Below, in pieces: positions 2,372 through 52,004 of a DNA stretch of 64,000 nt. Under the pieces are notes generated by a model. The model did not search any database, had not been told where the DNA came from, and saw only the letters and a list, made by a program, of their open reading frames with translations. Where the stretch lies: contig NZ_BMJA01000005.1 of NCBI RefSeq assembly GCF_014642835.1, forward strand, positions 248,001 through 312,000, read 5' to 3'. The position numbers were made by a program, and so were the translations under genes. Every line of letters starts with the position of its first letter. Positions within the stretch are counted from its first letter, which is position 1. This DNA comes from Dyella nitratireducens. GTDB taxonomy: Bacteria; Pseudomonadota; Gammaproteobacteria; Xanthomonadales; Rhodanobacteraceae.

Positions 2372-3505
2372 ATGTGCATGCCGTACGAGCAACCCAACGT
2401 TCAATCGGCCGTCGTGATCGCGATGCATCTGGTCGATATGGCTGATGCTATCGACTTGTCGAGCGCAGAAGCGCTGTGGCATCAACAACAGCGTCCTGCT
2501 GCGATACGCAGCAAACTTGCCAGCACGCCTCCGAAAGCGATGGCCTTTGGCGTTCCTCCGGTTGTGCTGCGGCTGGACCCGCTCGATCTCCCACTGCTTG
2601 GCACGACCTACCGGGCCGATGCCACCGTGCGGCTCTACGATTTCGGTGCAGTGGCCTTTTCGGTACAGATTCCGGTCACGTCCTGCAGTTGGATTTCGTT
2701 CTCGCAATTGGTGAACGCGGTAGATGCACTATTGGGCCCCGGGGCCGACAGCGCGGTATGGACGCAATTGCTGGAGCACGTTCGCGCAGCACTGCTTCCC
2801 GCGTTGACGAAACCCAGCCCCGCCTCCCTGCACGAAGATTATCTGCTGGGTATCGTGCACGCCTTCGACGAGACGATACCGGTGAGCGCGATGCATGAAC
2901 GTATCGATCTGGTACCGCTGCTCTCGGGCGAGCAGCGTCCTCTGTCGGAGCAGGCGCGCAGGGATTTATTGCAGCAACGGTTCTCTTATTACGCGGATGA
3001 CCTGGTCGTCATTACCTGGGACCGCGCTTTCATCTACGAACCGCGTGGCGATTCTGACGTAACCGACATTCTTGAGGTCGCCAACGCGCAGCTGCTGGAA
3101 ATGCGCTTCTACGACGAGTTGCTCGATGCCGAGTTGCCGCGCATGTACGACATGGTCGAGGCTGCTTACCATGCCGGCAATCCGTTAGGAGCTGGGGCAC
3201 GTCACTTCGCCGATCTGGCGCGCAAGCTGTACACCCTGGTGGCGGAAGTCACCGAGATTACCGAAAAGGTCGATAACGCCCTGCAGGTCACCGAGGATGT
3301 CTATCTGGCTCGCGTCTACGCCGCGGCACTGGATCTGTTCCGCGTGCGCCATGTCAGTGCTGCGGTGGATCGCAAGCTGGCGATCATCCGGGATACGTAT
3401 GCCGCGCTTTACGAAGAAGCGTCGGGAAAACGCGCAGAACTGCTGGAGCTGGCGATCATCGTATTGATCGTGGTGGAAATCGTGATTGCGATTATTCGCC
3501 ACTGA
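2372..3505 (+). CDS. RMD1/YagE-family (DUF155) membrane protein
   Basis: The C-terminal 180 residues carry the RMD1/DUF155 pattern. It begins with a strand-rich ADDLVVITWDRAFIYEP segment, followed by EVANAQLLEMRFYDELLD. A helical part then reads TEDVYLARVYAAALDLFRVRHV...SAAVDRKLAIIRDTYAALYE, and the chain ends in one hydrophobic helix (ELAIIVLIVVEIVIAIIRH). The N-terminal 200 residues are not recognised beyond a possible two-domain alpha/beta fold. The family includes yeast Rmd1 and mitochondrial RMND1; its biochemical role in bacteria is not known. The single C-terminal helix predicts a tail-anchored inner-membrane protein with its bulk in the cytoplasm. A second in-frame ATG at 2378 is an alternative start. 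A strong hairpin terminator follows. Confidence 0.75.
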   Translation: MCMPYEQPNVQSAVVIAMHLVDMADAIDLSSAEALWHQQQRPAAIRSKLASTPPKAMAFGVPPVVLRLDPLDLPLLGTTYRADATVRLYDFGAVAFSVQIPVTSCSWISFSQLVNAVDALLGPGADSAVWTQLLEHVRAALLPALTKPSPASLHEDYLLGIVHAFDETIPVSAMHERIDLVPLLSGEQRPLSEQARRDLLQQRFSYYADDLVVITWDRAFIYEPRGDSDVTDILEVANAQLLEMRFYDELLDAELPRMYDMVEAAYHAGNPLGAGARHFADLARKLYTLVAEVTEITEKVDNALQVTEDVYLARVYAAALDLFRVRHVSAAVDRKLAIIRDTYAALYEEASGKRAELLELAIIVLIVVEIVIAIIRH

Positions 3506-3519
3506 CCACCATCAAAACA

Positions 3520-3551
3520 AAAGCGCCGGGAGCCTGGGCTCCCGGCGCTTT
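3520..3551. terminator. Bidirectional rho-independent terminator
   Basis: A perfect 15-bp stem (AAAGCGCCGGGAGCC and its complement) with a minimal TG-centred loop has A residues on one side and T residues on the other. It lies between the convergent RMD1-family gene and the FadL-family gene and can end transcription from both. Confidence 0.9.
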
Positions 3552-3566
3552 ATGCACACAAGCGGA

Positions 3567-4982
3567 TCAGAACTTGTAGATCGCCGACAAGGCAAACAGA
3601 TTGCCTTCATCATCAGACGAACCCGTGAGCACATCATCGGTCGCGCTAACCGCGCCATTGATCGCCGCCCGATTGACAAAGATATGCGCGTACGAGGCAT
3701 TGATCGAGAAGTGCTCGGTGGCCTTGTAGCCCAGACCCACCGACAGCAGCTTGCGGGTTTCATCCGGCACGCGCGGCTCGCGATAGGCAGCCGTCGTCGG
3801 CGTGGTGTCGTAGCCCAAGCCGGCGCGCAGGGTCAGCTTGTCGGTGAGGTAGTAGTCGCCACCGACTGCGAAGTACCAGGAGTTATGCCAATTAAATTCC
3901 TGCGTGGTGGACGGCTGCGACGGGTTGCCGTAATTCACCGTGAGGTTCTTGAACACATCCCACCCGGTCCACGACACATCGGCGCCGAAACCGAATTTGT
4001 CTTCCTGGTGCCAATAGCTGGCGGTGGCTTCGGCCGGCGTGGTGAATTCGGCCGTGCCGCTGGTGTGCTGGAACGGCAGCTGGCTGGCGCTCAGGCCCAG
4101 TGCCGGCGCAAGTTCGCCAACCAGTACCTGCACGTTCTGCGGTACATCGAAATTGGCCGTGCCCTGCAAGCGATGGCTGATCTTGGAGCGATAGTTGAAC
4201 GAGAAGCGGTCCTGCGGATCAAGCTTCCAATAGGCGCCCAGCTGCCAGCCCCACGCCCAGCTGCTGCCGGTAATGCGCGCCTGGCCGTCGGTACCTGGCG
4301 GCACCAGTCCATAAACCTCGTTGACCGGCAGGTTCGAGGCCGTGCCAGGGCCGATCAAACCGAGTGCCACGCTGGAGAAGTTGATGGCATTGGTCAACGT
4401 CGCGGTGGTGCGCTGGGCAATGGCGCTGGCACCAACACTGAAGTTGTCGGTGACATCGAACGAGGCAGACATGGTGCCGTCCAGCGACTCGAACTTGGAG
4501 TAGATCGAGTTGTAACGGCCGACCCAGTTATTGTCATAGGTGGTCTTGAAGCCGAACGGCACGGTCACCGCGGCACCGAGGTGCAGACGGTCGGTGACCT
4601 GGGTGGCGAAGAAGAACGAAGGCACCGGTAAAGTGGTGCCGGCGTCGCCGCCGTTGCCGCCGCTGATCGGGCTGCCCAGCACGTCATGGGCGCTGCCAGT
4701 GAAGGTGGTGCTGAAATTGATAGCAGTGACGTCGGCTTCGAAATAGGTACCCTTCAGATCGCTCATCGCTGCCGGTGCATTGGCCACCACGGAAACGTCA
4801 CCGCCAGCCGTCGCGGAACCGGCGTAGGCACGGCCCATCGACTGCGCACTGTCTTCCTTCAGTTGGAACGAACTGGCGTGGGCCTGCTGCGGCGCTGCCA
4901 GGGCGCCGGCAATAGCCAGCCCCAGCGCGGCCAGTGCGAACGGACGGCCACCATGGACGGTGTTACGAAAGGACATGTGCAT
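3567..4982 (-). CDS. FadL/OmpP1-family outer membrane hydrocarbon or fatty acid channel
   Basis: The protein is about 471 residues from the chosen start, an ATG at 4982 preceded by an AGGAG ribosome site six bases away. The longer open frame to 5051 lacks such a site. A signal peptide (AALGLAIAGALAAPQQAHA) is followed by SSFQLKEDSAQSMGRAYAG, typical of the FadL N-terminal plug. Alternating amphipathic strands follow, and the chain ends in LFALSAIYKF with the terminal phenylalanine of an outer-membrane barrel. FadL-family proteins let hydrophobic molecules such as long-chain fatty acids or aromatic hydrocarbons cross the outer membrane. The substrate here cannot be read from the sequence. Confidence 0.88.
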   Translation of the reverse strand: MHMSFRNTVHGGRPFALAALGLAIAGALAAPQQAHASSFQLKEDSAQSMGRAYAGSATAGGDVSVVANAPAAMSDLKGTYFEADVTAINFSTTFTGSAHDVLGSPISGGNGGDAGTTLPVPSFFFATQVTDRLHLGAAVTVPFGFKTTYDNNWVGRYNSIYSKFESLDGTMSASFDVTDNFSVGASAIAQRTTATLTNAINFSSVALGLIGPGTASNLPVNEVYGLVPPGTDGQARITGSSWAWGWQLGAYWKLDPQDRFSFNYRSKISHRLQGTANFDVPQNVQVLVGELAPALGLSASQLPFQHTSGTAEFTTPAEATASYWHQEDKFGFGADVSWTGWDVFKNLTVNYGNPSQPSTTQEFNWHNSWYFAVGGDYYLTDKLTLRAGLGYDTTPTTAAYREPRVPDETRKLLSVGLGYKATEHFSINASYAHIFVNRAAINGAVSATDDVLTGSSDDEGNLFALSAIYKF

Positions 4983-45603: not shown

Positions 45604-47259
45604 ATGCTGAGCAGCGTTATCGAGGAAAAGTGGCAGAACCATCGTTGGCTCGTTCATATCGGGGTAGCAGTGGGTTACGCGTTGGCGTATCTGATCGTGA
45701 CGACAACGCTGGCGAACGCGCCCTGGTCGTTCGCGTCGGGGCTGCGTATCGCCTGTCTTCTGCTGGTGCCTTATCGCTATTGGCCTGCGTTGGTGGCGGG
45801 TGAACTGGTACCGCTCGCTTATCGCTGCCTTGCGCATGTGGACGATTTTGGATTGACGTGGGCGCTGCTCGCTTCGGTGCCACCAATCATGCTGGCCATG
45901 CCAGTGATATGGTGGTTCCGCGAGCGCGCCGTACTTTTCCCTCGCCCTGATTTGGTGGATATCAAAAAGCTTCTCTATTGCATAATTTTATTGTCTCTGC
46001 TGTGGGCAGCAGCAGGCTCTGCAATCGTCTCCACGGTTCATTTGCGAAGCGGTCAGTATCGCATTCCGACAGGCATCGCCTTTTCGCTCTTTATTGATTT
46101 CTATATGGCCTTGCTTATGGTGGCGCCATGGGTGGTCATAGCTCGGATTCATCCACGTGAAGCGTTACGTCCGTTGCCTTCATGGCGAGTAATCGCAACA
46201 AATTCGGCGATGCGGGATGTTGCCATCGCCGCCGCTTTGTTCGTGGTATTGACGATGCTGCATCGCGTTGTCGATGAAGCTATCAAACCTGCCGTGATGC
46301 TGGTGCTCTTTTTCCCAGCTCTGGGATTGACGCTCAAGCACGGATGGCGAGCCTGTGTATTTGGAGCAACGCTTTGTCTTATCAGTATCTGTTTGCTCGT
46401 GGAGTGGCGGCCAGATCCCGGCGTGCAACAGATCCAAGCGGTACTCGCTTTCGCTATCACCGGCCTCTACGTGTTTGGCGCGCGCCTGTCCACGCAAATG
46501 TGGATGTTCGAACAACTTCAGCACGAAACCCTGCAGACCCGACAGGTCGCGAAGAGGAGCCTGGCATCCGGTGAAGATCGCTTGCAGCAAACCTCGCAAG
46601 CCTTGGAGTGCGTCGTGGGCATCCTGCGTATGGATTACACCCGCATCATGCAGCGCTTTATCCCGGAAGCGCTGCGCGACGACTACAGCCAGGACTTCTG
46701 GAACGTGCAGCGGGAGGTCTACCAGCTTGCCGAAAGCATTCACCCCAGCGCATGGCGGGAGCGCGGGCTGGCGGCGGCCCTGGAGGAAACCATTGGCAAC
46801 GCGTTGCGTGAGGTGGGTATCTCCTATTCCTGCGACACGCCGGGGCGCCGGCTGCGTTTTCTGAGCGAAGCCTTGCAGGCCGTGTTATATCGCATGGCCT
46901 GCGAAGCGGCGGCGACGATGAGCGCCTCGCCTGCCTGCATCGGTGTCCATCTCGCCCTGCGCACGGGACGGCATCATGGCGCCCCGTGGGTGGCCTTGCG
47001 TATGGATGGCATGCTGGAGGCATCGCAAGCGGCGTATGGCATTCTGCAAGCGAGGGCGCGTCAAAACGTGGCGTCGAAACTGGGGGCTGGGATCAAAACC
47101 GATAGCGAGTTACGACTGTTGGCGCGTTTGTTCCACGGAGATGCACGTTTTCGTACGACGGCTTCAGGGGTCCGCTTTACCGCATTGCTGAGCGATATCA
47201 CCTCACGAGACTTGAGTCAGAGTGCCAAGATGGCACCCGTTCGACTGTGGGCCAGATGA
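45604..47259 (+). CDS. MASE1-domain membrane protein with degenerate histidine-kinase-like region
   Basis: The 551-residue protein has 8-9 membrane helices in residues 15-300 with the MASE1 look (LVHIGVAVGYALAYLIV, ASGLRIACLLLVPYRYWPALVAGELVPLA). A cytoplasmic part follows, with a helical segment (RLQQTSQALECVVGILRMDYTRIMQRFIPEALRDDY) and LAESIHPSAWRERGLAAALEETIGNAL. The latter resembles the dimerisation end of NarX-type kinases. No clear N, G1 or G2 ATP-binding boxes follow, and no phosphoacceptor histidine stands out. It may be a non-catalytic sensor. AAGGG lies before the ATG. No response regulator gene is adjacent. Confidence 0.7.
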   Translation: MLSSVIEEKWQNHRWLVHIGVAVGYALAYLIVTTTLANAPWSFASGLRIACLLLVPYRYWPALVAGELVPLAYRCLAHVDDFGLTWALLASVPPIMLAMPVIWWFRERAVLFPRPDLVDIKKLLYCIILLSLLWAAAGSAIVSTVHLRSGQYRIPTGIAFSLFIDFYMALLMVAPWVVIARIHPREALRPLPSWRVIATNSAMRDVAIAAALFVVLTMLHRVVDEAIKPAVMLVLFFPALGLTLKHGWRACVFGATLCLISICLLVEWRPDPGVQQIQAVLAFAITGLYVFGARLSTQMWMFEQLQHETLQTRQVAKRSLASGEDRLQQTSQALECVVGILRMDYTRIMQRFIPEALRDDYSQDFWNVQREVYQLAESIHPSAWRERGLAAALEETIGNALREVGISYSCDTPGRRLRFLSEALQAVLYRMACEAAATMSASPACIGVHLALRTGRHHGAPWVALRMDGMLEASQAAYGILQARARQNVASKLGAGIKTDSELRLLARLFHGDARFRTTASGVRFTALLSDITSRDLSQSAKMAPVRLWAR

Positions 47260-48203: not shown

Positions 48204-48824
48204 ATGCAAATCCCAGAAAACCCTCACATCGCCTCCCTTGTGGATACAACATTGCAACCGCCGTCGTCGACTAAGCAAGGCACCGGGTCTCCCGATACAA
48301 GATTAGAACCGCATAATCCGACCAATTTTACTCAAACAAATAATGACCAGTGGGGTGACAATCGTGACCCACGAAACTTCTGGGACTGGCTCACCGCGCC
48401 TATTATCAGAATTTTTGGTGGCGGCAGTTCTCAGGAAAGCCTTCCCGATTTCCAAAATGGCGAGTGGACGCGCCAAACAGACCATCCACCTTACGTTACC
48501 TATAGCAAAATGTCTGACCAACCTTATGGAGGCGAAGGAAAAATTGAGACTAAATACGATCTTATTAATGGTGAACCAAAGATATTAACCAGAACAGAAC
48601 TAGACAAAAATGGCAATCCAACCAAATCGTTGGCAGATTATTACAATGAATACCCCAATGTCGCGAAGGAAGAGACGATAACATATCGTGATGGAAAGCC
48701 TAGTTTACGCACTGACAATATTTTTTCAGTAACAGGAAACTGGGTTAGAGGTGAATCTTACGCAATGGGCGCGGATGGCGAATGGCATCTGCAGCATCCC
48801 GATGGTTCCACGCAAAATAGCTGA
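48204..48824 (+). CDS. AT-rich orphan protein of 206 residues
   Basis: I do not recognise this protein. It is polar, without signal peptide or clear membrane helices. The N-terminal 60 residues are rich in Thr, Pro, Asn and Gln (HNPTNFTQTNNDQWGDNRD). The C-terminal half has repeating short strands with GN/DG turns (YDLINGEPKILTRTELDKNGNPTKSLADYY, TYRDGKPSLRTDN, GADGEWHLQHPDG), like wall- or toxin-associated repeats. Base composition falls to 30-50 percent GC in individual lines, far below the neighbours, suggesting recent transfer. No strong ribosome site precedes the ATG. A perfect 10-bp hairpin follows the stop. Confidence 0.6.
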   Translation: MQIPENPHIASLVDTTLQPPSSTKQGTGSPDTRLEPHNPTNFTQTNNDQWGDNRDPRNFWDWLTAPIIRIFGGGSSQESLPDFQNGEWTRQTDHPPYVTYSKMSDQPYGGEGKIETKYDLINGEPKILTRTELDKNGNPTKSLADYYNEYPNVAKEETITYRDGKPSLRTDNIFSVTGNWVRGESYAMGADGEWHLQHPDGSTQNS

Positions 48825-48941: not shown

Positions 48942-49856
48942 TCACTCGCCCAGCACCTTCCCGTTAACCGTCACGCCATACAGCGAATCCGGCGTGTCGT
49001 GATACGCCTTCCGCGTCTCCGTGACGGAACCCTTGAAGCGCGGGTCCTGCGGGCGCTCGTGCGCATTCATGAAATACGCCACGTCCCATGCATCCTGGTC
49101 GGTAAGCGTATTGCCACGGCCCAATGGCATGTTGGCCTTGATGAAGCCGGAAGCGTTGTCGAGCCGCTCCATGCCGGCACCCCAGTTGAACGATTGCGCG
49201 CCCCATAGCGGGGGGAAAACCGTGCGGTCTGCAACACGCTGGCCCTGGCCGTTGTCGCCGTGGCATAGCGCGCAATCGCGCTTGAATACCGCTTCGCCGC
49301 GTGCGTAATCGGGCGCTTGTGTTGGCCTGGGTAATTTCGGATAGCCGTGTCCCGGCGGTGCTACACCGATAGGTTCGTTTTTCGACATCCAATACGCATA
49401 CGCTTCCAGCGCAACCAGCACGTCATCGCCCAATGGTGGCGCCTTGCCGTTCATGCTGTACTGGAAGCAGCCCTGCAAGCGCTCGGCAAACGTGTTGACG
49501 TGGCGATTCTTGGCGCGATAGGCGGGATACATGGGATAGGCGCCCCACATCGGCGCGCTGTGTGCGAGACGGCCGGCATCGAGGTGGCAGTTTTCGCAGT
49601 TCAACGTGTTGCCGACATAGGCTTTGGCGTAGCGGCCGGTATCCGTGAAGATCTGCCGGCCCAGTGCTATCTGCTTGCCGAAATCATCTTGGGGAATCGA
49701 TGAATCCGGCGGCGGCTCGAAGTGGCTGGCCGCTTTTGGTGCGGAAGTTGCCGCGGCGGGTGGGTGAGACACGACGGGAGCCGCCTGTTGTTCCGGTTGA
49801 TGGCACGCCGCAAGTGCAAGCGATGCCGTAACCCATATCCATCGCCACCGCATCAT
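48942..49856 (-). CDS. tsdA: Thiosulfate dehydrogenase (tetrathionate-forming), TsdA-type diheme cytochrome
   Basis: TsdA couples two thiosulfates to tetrathionate. From ATG 49856 the 304-residue protein has a lipoprotein-like signal (WVTASLALAACHQ), so it may be membrane-anchored in the periplasm. Haem motifs are CENCH (87-91) and CALCH (195-199). The family's unusual Cys ligand of haem 1 is present at Cys130 (ERLQGCFQYSMNGK). Lys240 and Met243 (FIKANMPLG) fit the haem 2 ligand region. SAPMWGAYPMYPAYR and FPPLWGAQSFNWGAGM are further TsdA marks. It is the last gene of a four-gene operon, its start overlapping the previous stop. Confidence 0.9.
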   Translation of the reverse strand: MMRWRWIWVTASLALAACHQPEQQAAPVVSHPPAAATSAPKAASHFEPPPDSSIPQDDFGKQIALGRQIFTDTGRYAKAYVGNTLNCENCHLDAGRLAHSAPMWGAYPMYPAYRAKNRHVNTFAERLQGCFQYSMNGKAPPLGDDVLVALEAYAYWMSKNEPIGVAPPGHGYPKLPRPTQAPDYARGEAVFKRDCALCHGDNGQGQRVADRTVFPPLWGAQSFNWGAGMERLDNASGFIKANMPLGRGNTLTDQDAWDVAYFMNAHERPQDPRFKGSVTETRKAYHDTPDSLYGVTVNGKVLGE

Positions 49857-50515
49857 GGCTGCGGCTCCTTCATCAACGTTGCCGGTTGCGCGGCATACCA
49901 TGCACTGATCGCCGCGATGTCCGCATCATCCAATTTGCCGGCGACGGTTTGCATCAGTTGCAAGGGATCATTGCGCCGCGCGCCTTGCTGCCAGGCATGC
50001 AGCTGATTGCTGAGATAAAGCACCGACTGCCGGGCCAATGGCGGAAAGTGATCGCCGACGCCTATACCGCCAGGACCATGGCACTGCTCGCAGGCAGGCA
50101 TGTCTTTCGACCAGCGCCCACGGCTAGCGAGCGATTGCGCGAGCGTTGCGCTATCCCCCGATGGTGGTGTTGCTGGCGCTGCGGACGGCACCGGCAACTT
50201 GCTGTAATACACCGCGAGAGCATCGCGCTCGGCATCGCTCAATCCACTTGCAACCGGCTGCATGGTGGCGTTGACGCGCGAGCCATGGGCGAAATCATCC
50301 AGCTGCTTGCGCAAATAGGCCTGAGGCAATCCTGCCAGGCGCGGGAAACCAGCTGCCGCCTGTCCGCCGCCATCGGCAGCATGACAAGCCATGCATGGCG
50401 CAACACCGCGAGCATTCCCTTGCCTGGCGATGGCGGCGCCGTCCGGCGTATCCGCAAACGCGCTCTTCATCATTAGCGCGCAGCACGCAAACACAACCAT
50501 GCGAAACACGCTCAT
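49853..50515 (-). CDS. Diheme cytochrome c, c4/TsdB-like
   Basis: From ATG 50515 the 220-residue protein has a signal peptide (FRMVVFACCALMMKSAFA) and two similar cytochrome c domains with CMACH (41-45) and CEQCH (142-146). GFPRLAGLPQAYLRKQLDDFAHGSR and FPPLARQSVLYLSNQLHAWQQG mark the two halves of a c4-type fold. In other bacteria a diheme cytochrome TsdB accepts electrons from TsdA, and this gene is co-translated with tsdA (ATGA overlap). It is therefore the likely periplasmic electron acceptor. The start also overlaps the stop of the upstream binding-protein gene. Confidence 0.87.
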   Translation of the reverse strand: MSVFRMVVFACCALMMKSAFADTPDGAAIARQGNARGVAPCMACHAADGGGQAAAGFPRLAGLPQAYLRKQLDDFAHGSRVNATMQPVASGLSDAERDALAVYYSKLPVPSAAPATPPSGDSATLAQSLASRGRWSKDMPACEQCHGPGGIGVGDHFPPLARQSVLYLSNQLHAWQQGARRNDPLQLMQTVAGKLDDADIAAISAWYAAQPATLMKEPQP

Positions 50516-51450
50516 GGCTGCGGTGGCTGAAAGCCGTACTTGCGATAGATTCCCTGGACCTCGGCGGAAGCCATAAAGCTCAGAAAATCCCTGGCCGCCT
50601 GCGCATGCGGTGCGTCTTTCATGCGCGCCGCGGTGTAGGTGGCCGTGACATTCTGCTGCACCGGTATCGTGATCGTTTCCACCGGACGATGCAGGATTTG
50701 CTGCTGGAAATACGCTTCGGTCGACCACACCGGCGCGGCATCCGATTCGCCTTGCAGGATACGCAACGGCGATTCGCGATGATGGATGCGCGTGAGATAG
50801 GTGCTGCCGTCCTTCACTTTGTTAGCCATGATGGCTTGGTCCAACGCATCGCCACCGGCTTTGCGATAACTGGCTTCGATCTGTTTGGCAATGCCTTCCC
50901 ACTGCGGGTTGGGCATGCTGACGTGCACGTCGGCTCGGCCGAGATCCTTCAAGCCTTCGATATGTTTGGGATTGCCCTGCGCCACCATGATCGCCAGCGG
51001 ATTGCGCGCATAATCGACGGTATCGGCAAACCAATGGTGCTGCTTTTGCAATTCAGCAATCGAACCCTTGCCGTTGGTGAAGATATCCGGCTTCAGTGCA
51101 ATACGCAGATTGCCCATCACCAGCGAGCCGGTTTCGATCTGCTTGGCCAGAATGCCCGGTGGCAAGGTCTCCACGAATACACGCTGATACTGCGGATAGC
51201 GTTGCTTGAACGCTTCCACCAGATCGTGCACCACCATGAACTGGTTACCGGCAAAGAACACCGTCAACTGCGGATCGACGATGTCGCCATGCAGGTCGGC
51301 AATGGCGTCGAACGGCGGTACCGCGAATGAGACACCACCCGTCGGTGGTGGATTCCACGGTGGCAGGTAATCCGGCTGGGAGGCGTACACAACACCGCAG
51401 GCAACCGCCAGCAGCGCCGCCAGCGACAGCTTTCTGCAACACAACGACAT
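50512..51450 (-). CDS. Periplasmic substrate-binding protein (ModA-like)
   Basis: From ATG 51450 the 312-residue protein has a signal peptide (LSLAALLAVACGVVYA) and an extracellular solute-binding fold. Recognisable parts are DPQLTVFFAGNQFMVVHDLVEAFKQRYPQYQ, LPPGILAKQIETGSLVMGNLRIALKPDIFT, NPLAIMVAQGNPKHIEGLKDLGRADVHVSMPNPQWEGIAKQI and ARDFLSFMASAEVQGIYRKYGF. These resemble molybdate/tungstate-type binding proteins. There are no ABC permease or ATPase genes beside it, so it probably does not feed a transporter. Its place between a DsrE-like gene and cytochrome genes suggests binding of a sulfur anion, which is inference. Confidence 0.8.
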   Translation of the reverse strand: MSLCCRKLSLAALLAVACGVVYASQPDYLPPWNPPPTGGVSFAVPPFDAIADLHGDIVDPQLTVFFAGNQFMVVHDLVEAFKQRYPQYQRVFVETLPPGILAKQIETGSLVMGNLRIALKPDIFTNGKGSIAELQKQHHWFADTVDYARNPLAIMVAQGNPKHIEGLKDLGRADVHVSMPNPQWEGIAKQIEASYRKAGGDALDQAIMANKVKDGSTYLTRIHHRESPLRILQGESDAAPVWSTEAYFQQQILHRPVETITIPVQQNVTATYTAARMKDAPHAQAARDFLSFMASAEVQGIYRKYGFQPPQP

Positions 51451-51464
51451 ATCGATACCCCGGC

Positions 51465-52004
51465 TTAGAGCGGCATCAGGGCATAGCCCTGCTGTTCCAG
51501 CTCGGTAATCGTGGTGAGCGCAGAGAGGCTGACCGTCACGTCTTTCGCCGCCCACTCATTCGGATAGTGATGCTCGGCCATGGCCTGGCCGCACACCGCG
51601 ACGTCCACGCCTGCCTTGTGCAATTGCGCGATCACCGGAAGGTTGGGATTGGCCACGCCAAACTGGGCCTTGTAGTGATCGTCGTCGAGCACGATCGGCG
51701 TCGCCGGGCCATACGCCACCGCGACGAACTTCAGATGATCGAGCGGCACACCCGCTGAGGCGTAGAGGTTCACCGTGCGTGCGACGCGCTCCAGCGCCGG
51801 GTTGACCTCACCAGGCTTCTCGCTGCCCTTGGTCAGCGAGAACACCACCTTGTACGTATTGGCCGGATCGGGCTGATAGGCCGCCTTGGGCAATGGATGG
51901 TAATTACCGGCCGCGGTGATGACTTGCGGTGCTGCACCCTGAGCTACAACGGCAGTGCAAGCGAGCAGGCTGATGCTGCAGAACAGCGAAATCGAGGGCT
52001 TCAT
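51465..52004 (-). CDS. Secreted DsrE-family protein
   Basis: From ATG 52004 the 179-residue protein has a signal peptide ([18 protein letters not shown]) and a DsrE/DsrF-like domain. It reads [53 protein letters not shown], then [25 protein letters not shown]. Cys138 in AVCGQAM sits where the sulfur-carrying cysteine of DsrE lies. Cytoplasmic DsrE passes persulfide sulfur; an exported version is less common. It is the first gene of the operon, 14 bases before the binding protein gene. Confidence 0.82.

Follow-up and report, generated by a model that had tools for sequence, protein, structure and literature searches.

A four-gene operon of Dyella nitratireducens, dsrE-sbp-c4-tsdA, joins a predicted TsdA-type thiosulfate dehydrogenase and a TsdB-like cytochrome to an exported DsrE-like protein and a periplasmic solute-binding protein (SBP). 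We propose, with a probability of about 0.6, that its products make up an extended thiosulfate dehydrogenase, periplasmic and tetrathionate-forming, equipped with an SBP-DsrE substrate-handling module, relatives of which occur with DoxDA and TSD. What the analysis shows is gene linkage, single-protein fusions, a predicted TSD fold, invariant cysteines and TsdA/TsdB sequence membership. The operon runs on the minus strand between 52004 and 48942 of the window, the whole stretch of 64,000 nucleotides analyzed here, which is part of contig C5 of a 5.68-Mb genome and whose closest protein matches carrying an organism name are mostly from Dyella. Its genes are:

51465..52004, minus strand: dsrE, exported DsrE/DsrF-like protein of 179 amino acids (Pfam PF02635, 39.8 bits, cut-off 22.7)
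50512..51450, minus strand: sbp, periplasmic solute-binding protein (SBP_bac_11) of 312 amino acids (PF13531, 150 bits)
49853..50515, minus strand: c4, tsdB-like diheme cytochrome c4 of 220 amino acids (best PDB match, the N-terminal part of 5lo9)
48942..49856, minus strand: tsdA, thiosulfate dehydrogenase of 304 amino acids, predicted lipoprotein (5lo9, 4wqc, PF21342)

Sequence membership tests place the last product among the TsdA-type thiosulfate dehydrogenases. It scores 38.3 bits against PF21342 (SoxA-TsdA_cyt-c, cut-off 27), carries the heme motifs CENCH (87-91) and CALCH (195-199), and matches the thiosulfate dehydrogenase 4wqc (E 9.6e-53) and 5lo9 (E 2.3e-81), aligning with the 5lo9 chain beyond its N-terminal, c4-matching part. 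Its active-site Cys130 (ligand of heme 1) and Met243 (distal at heme 2) line up with Cys and Met of 5lo9, 4wqc and 4v2k, the residue preceding Met243 being Asn, as in 4wqc, and Lys in 4v2k. TsdA hemes are described as His/Cys- and His/Met-ligated (PMC9237845), and tetrathionate formation as proceeding via a cysteine S-thiosulfonate on the heme-ligating cysteine (PMC4423706). The c4 product contains two Cytochrom_C stretches (Pfam) with CXXCH at 41 and 142. Its PDB matches put 5lo9, in the N-terminal part, first at E 7.6e-41 and cytochrome c4 6q2u lower at E 2.6e-28; 5lo9 is named as the source of the TsdB structure, from Marichromatium purpuratum (PMC9237845). With c4 directly before tsdA and its product closest to 5lo9, the pair of TsdA and TsdB-like diheme cytochrome recognized by the first-pass annotation is borne out by Pfam, alignment and gene order alike. 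That annotation had passed over a lipobox in TsdA (LAAC, Cys18), which makes it a predicted lipoprotein; of 25 TsdA open reading frames (ORFs) from other loci, 22 have a lipobox by regular expression, and two of the 25 (L106 and L154) have the same N-terminus as the window TsdA.

The layout described earlier, four co-directional genes with overlapping or closely spaced junctions, is confirmed by coordinates, spacings and Pfam domains: dsrE and sbp lie 14 bases apart, and sbp/c4 and c4/tsdA each overlap by four bases. Export signals on all four products likewise stand on inspection by eye, as Sec-like N-termini in the dsrE, sbp and c4 products and as the lipobox in TsdA. A scan for promoters and terminators gave 1 and 3 sites, no excess over shuffled sequence. 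The DsrE protein has cysteines at 9, 16 and 138, of which Cys138 alone lies outside the signal region. All 28 rows of the alignment have Cys at the position of Cys138, the candidate sulfur-carrying residue. DsrF and DsrH, the partners of the DsrEFH complex, are absent from the operon, whose other genes are sbp, c4 and tsdA. Among 120 listed DsrE homologues, nine (P0198, P0216, P0217, P0226, P0230, P0233, P0235, P0236 and P0239) have an ArsR-type helix-turn-helix in the same ORF, either by fusion or as a gene-call artefact; in P0198, a signal-like stretch separates the two parts.

The binding protein had been labeled ModA-like, a label that holds for the fold and fails for the family. Its AF2 model (pLDDT 86.7) retrieves molybdate-, sulfate- and PEB3-type binding proteins with Foldseek, and its profile matches SubI 6ddn (E 1.9e-13), but with the NCBIfam modA model TIGR01256 it reaches 22.7 bits where 62.5 are required, and ModA was rejected as its identity. 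A motif scan finds no ORF with an ABC-ATPase (ATP-binding cassette) motif between 45500 and 57000, in agreement with the earlier statement that the binding protein lacks an ABC permease at the locus; a molybdate importer was discarded on both grounds. Residues P180, N181, P182, E185, G186, H223, H224 and R225 of the window SBP are shared by all 42 rows of an alignment that spans its own subfamily and the DoxDA-linked one. Two family genomes (G353 and G368) have two SBP places each, one of the window subfamily (76-86% identical) and one distant (44-45%), and two loci carry a second, different SBP_bac_11 gene downstream of sbp (L154:4149-4919 and L155:4512-5486).

The association is recurrent in the family. 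We searched 117 family genomes with SBP, TsdA, DsrE and Pfam DoxD, taking genes as neighbours if they share a strand and lie no more than 6 kb apart; DoxD entered the counts with its 10 places that score over 70 bits. Among 40 SBP places, 30 have dsrE and tsdA, five have dsrE, tsdA and doxD, four have dsrE and doxD, and one has doxD only; all of the 42 tsdA places have dsrE nearby, accompanied by sbp at 35 and on its own at seven. By genome, SBP and TsdA occur together in 34, SBP alone in four (all with doxD), TsdA alone in six and neither in 73 (Fisher p 6e-19, computed over related genomes that are not independent). Because family members repeatedly show this gene order, the four-gene arrangement is not due to chance. 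DsrE also occurs at a distance from sbp, tsdA and doxD (15 of 62 family DsrE places). In the window genome, DoxD is represented by one match to model positions 74-148 of 167, on contig C1 rather than C5, at 22.6 bits (23.3 with frame neighbours, marginally over the cut-off of 22.7), and a search for full-length DoxD gave no match at E 1e-15; a search for SoxY gave no match there, nor in any control genome. At six tsdA places without sbp (L151 and L152, from G304 and G278, together with G319, G333, G347 and G360), a distant DsrE, 35-37% identical to the window DsrE, lies about 300 bases off, in the order c4-tsdA-dsrE in L151 and L152. In L153 (G380), a pyrroloquinoline quinone beta-propeller protein (3430-4839; PF13360, 148 bits) replaces sbp between dsrE and c4-tsdA.

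Beyond the family, the module was followed in 79 named loci, the best of 498 confirmed matches in a scan of genome contigs with an alignment of seven SBP rows, three of them doxDA-linked, and hence not a random sample; partners were counted on either strand, centre to centre. Upstream of sbp lies DsrE in 25 loci, TSD in 44 and neither in 10, one locus (L101) having both and being counted under TSD. Within 7.5 kb, 35 loci have doxDA without tsdA, 18 tsdA without doxDA, seven both and 19 neither. Fifteen of the 18 are SBP-TsdA single proteins: ORFs of 593 to 649 amino acids with the SBP part first and then two CXXCH motifs, all scoring above 225 bits to both the window SBP and the window TsdA; in two of them (L074 and L065), Pfam places SoxA-TsdA and Cytochrom_C behind SBP_bac_11. 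In one genome of the family (L148), a single ORF encodes SBP and c4, possibly through an assembly error, since its close relative L149 has them as separate genes. Seven loci carry dsrE, sbp, c4, tsdA and doxDA consecutively and bridge the TsdA and DoxDA settings. Among the 19 without either oxidase are Thiomonas tsd-sbp pairs, five of which (L060, L064, L066, L075 and L079) show neither doxDA nor tsdA in the available flanks; L075 was assigned by its place in the tree only, and downstream of L064 and L079 the contig runs out in under 2.4 kb.

The first-pass annotation took confinement of the binding-protein and DsrE genes to tsdA loci as a check on its extended thiosulfate-oxidation system, and held their wide joint occurrence without tsdA to speak against it. 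That confinement is ruled out, dsrE and sbp standing with doxDA and without tsdA in 16 of the 79 named loci and at 4 of the 40 family sbp places. The link to thiosulfate oxidation is made stronger, not weaker, by these loci, because doxDA is described as encoding thiosulfate:quinone oxidoreductase. The proposed extended system thus survives in part: its tie to tsdA alone is lost, and what remains is the presence of SBP and DsrE in thiosulfate-to-tetrathionate loci, together with the TsdA fusions in 15 of 79 loci and the c4 fusion in L148.

A survey of 274 class genomes with the window SBP as query sets the limits of this distribution. Matches occur in 35 genomes, and outside the window's own genome five class SBPs exceed 230 bits: three adjoin doxDA, with DoxD and DoxA confirmed by Pfam (two with dsrE in front, one with TSD), and two (G263 and G156) lack query-gene neighbours. 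Among 36 lower-scoring class SBPs, none of the 15 fetched (L037-L051, some on short contigs) has dsrE, tsdA, c4 or doxDA beside it. TsdA is present in 36 of the 274 genomes, with a matched SBP within 8 kb in the window's own genome alone. Most class TsdAs are without this SBP, and the dsrE-sbp module is therefore a lineage-limited addition to TsdA.

TSD, which lies upstream of sbp in 44 of the named loci, is predicted to be a DsrE-fold protein from a second look at its structure model with VIA-align. Profile comparison of DsrE and TSD with hhalign gave E 0.001 and probability 21 for alignments of 28 and 22 rows, and places Cys on Cys. With 136 and 141 rows, the values fell back to E 0.012 and probability 3.5, where the controls gave E 0.1-0.59 for eight column-shuffled TSD alignments, 0.11 for SBP/TSD and 0.037 for DsrE/SBP, and hhalign was dropped as proof of sequence homology. 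With Foldseek alone, the TSD model had no match below E 0.001, the best being MTH1491 (2.6e-3). What the window DsrE shares with TSD is place and predicted fold only, the structure models being those of TSD and SBP, and the TSD family alignment (A3) has no match in the window genome at E 1e-10. A review classes TSD and TsdA as two different enzyme kinds; the TSD of Acidithiobacillus ferrooxidans (Kikumoto 2013, as presented in two reviews) reportedly leaves both ubiquinone and horse cytochrome c unreduced, and the legend of a 2024 review figure gives its electron acceptor a question mark.

We infer the ligand, docking and sulfur chemistry of the module as follows. TsdA, probably lipid-anchored, would form tetrathionate from thiosulfate at its Cys-ligated heme, with the TsdB-like c4 receiving the electrons. 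The SBP would catch thiosulfate (or tetrathionate) and dock on the oxidase rather than on an ABC permease, while Cys138 of DsrE could buffer a thiosulfate-derived group as a Cys-S-thiosulfonate and exchange it with the oxidase. Relatives of the module may serve the unrelated, quinone-reducing DoxDA, and in a putative acidophile version TSD, with its predicted DsrE fold, would take the place of DsrE.

Several observations weigh against this proposal. DsrE3A of Metallosphaera cuprina is described as forming Cys-S-thiosulfonates from tetrathionate without reacting with thiosulfate (PMC4175335), so that loading of a DsrE protein from thiosulfate is not the known direction. Thirty-five of the 36 TsdA-bearing class genomes have no matched SBP beside TsdA, 7 of the 42 family tsdA places have dsrE without sbp, and 19 of the 79 named loci have neither oxidase, 12 of these with about 10 kb of contig downstream. 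The window SBP subfamily is set apart from the DoxDA-linked one by a long branch and 38-46% identity, for which reason the ligand could differ between the two. The weak hhalign values for DsrE and TSD, with the smaller and the larger alignments alike, and the Foldseek result for TSD belong here as well.

The strongest rival, which we consider rather unlikely, has the module acting on tetrathionate: the SBP would capture it and the DsrE cysteine would be loaded from it, making the operon a tetrathionate reductase or a branch point where thiosulfate groups stay bound to protein and available to other enzymes. The DsrE3A chemistry favors this, as does the description of TsdA enzymes as bidirectional (PMC6879331), but the window TsdA has a TsdB-like cytochrome as its electron acceptor, and thiosulfate oxidation is the described role of DoxDA and TSD, which are the partners at other loci. 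Dyella thiooxydans, too, is a described thiosulfate oxidizer; its genome note, in the passages available, assigns this oxidation to sulfite oxidase and rhodanese genes without naming tsdA. A purely sensory or regulatory role, with SBP and DsrE as a periplasmic sulfur-anion detector signaling to a regulator and taking no catalytic part, is quite improbable. It could draw on LysR-like ORFs near several dsrE-sbp loci (Pfam on one), on the ArsR-type helix-turn-helix in nine of the 120 DsrE homologues and on the ArsR-type SoxR and sHdrR of Hyphomicrobium, described as responding to sulfane sulfur (PMC12423496); against it stand the SBP fusions to catalytic TsdA and to c4, and among the neighbouring ORFs of the window operon, which are annotated in part, none immediately next to it was seen to be a regulator. 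Least of all do we expect the SBP to be an ordinary molybdate or sulfate importer part, in the operon by accident with its ABC permease elsewhere, since its likeness to ModA and sulfate-binding proteins, in fold and remotely in sequence, is countered by the missed modA cut-off, by the scarcity of ABC-ATPase motif ORFs, which lie within 5 kb at just 7 of the 79 loci and are absent from the window locus, and by the fusions and the co-occurrence with tsdA and dsrE.

A bolder extension of the thiosulfate dehydrogenase reading, which we regard as possible at well under even odds, would make DsrE/TSD plus SBP an ancestral thiosulfate-condensing unit, in which a DsrE-fold cysteine makes the S-S bond, the SBP delivers thiosulfate, and the electrons leave to cytochrome c or quinone through TsdA-TsdB or DoxDA, one exchangeable for the other. 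It would explain why the A. ferrooxidans TSD reportedly reduces neither acceptor tried and why the 2024 review leaves that acceptor open.

Comparison with known systems draws on passages of PMC2754497, PMC6335251, PMC9237845, PMC4919399, PMC10859504 and PMC4175335. The window operon resembles TsdBA (M. purpuratum 5lo9, Halomonas titanicae tsdBA) in its c4-type TsdB directly before tsdA and in a diheme TsdA with an active-site Cys motif, and differs in the added dsrE and sbp and in the TsdA lipobox. The thiosulfate:quinone oxidoreductase/TSD cluster of A. ferrooxidans is described as AFE_0042 (tsd), 0043 (sbp), 0044 (doxDA) and 0045 (rhodanese), AFE_0042 being identified by place, Tat (twin-arginine translocation) signal, size and database names. 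By place it offers the same combination of a wide-family sbp, an exported protein of predicted DsrE fold upstream and an adjoining thiosulfate-to-tetrathionate enzyme, a likeness shown by sequence in A. ferruginosus (L055), but its oxidase is DoxDA instead of TsdA, and its TSD is Tat-exported and about 270 amino acids long, whereas the window DsrE is Sec-type with 179. The thiosulfate transfer system DsrE3A-TusA of M. cuprina provides an analogy for a DsrE-family cysteine protein that may handle thiosulfate groups; DsrE3A has hdr-like genes on its flanks and TusA as its partner, whereas the window DsrE is exported and encoded with sbp, c4 and tsdA. ModA and the sulfate-binding proteins (SBP, SubI) share the periplasmic binding-protein fold, from which the window SBP departs in falling below the modA cut-off and in having no ABC-ATPase ORF nearby. 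The A. ferrooxidans tsd-sbp-doxDA-rhd cluster is already published, and the TsdA-SBP-DsrE operon is an extended variant of the thiosulfate dehydrogenase operon; a mostly open-access literature search found nothing linking TsdA with an SBP and DsrE, or TSD with the DsrE fold.

Thiosulfate-to-tetrathionate oxidation has been attributed to TsdA, DoxDA and TSD, which these loci tie together through one binding-protein family and a DsrE-fold cysteine protein. The shared dsrE/TSD-SBP module is the most interesting part, and points to a common element of microbial conversion of thiosulfate to tetrathionate. For TSD, the loci also point to a fold and to a cysteine that may be catalytic, making the question of its electron acceptor testable, and they suggest a binding protein that docks on, or is part of, a redox enzyme rather than feeding an ABC permease.

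Past the end of tsdA, on the opposite strand, follows an ORF of 206 amino acids without a Pfam match (48204-48824, plus strand); a MASE1-domain membrane protein (PF05231), for which no link to the operon was seen, is encoded at 45604-47259 on the plus strand.
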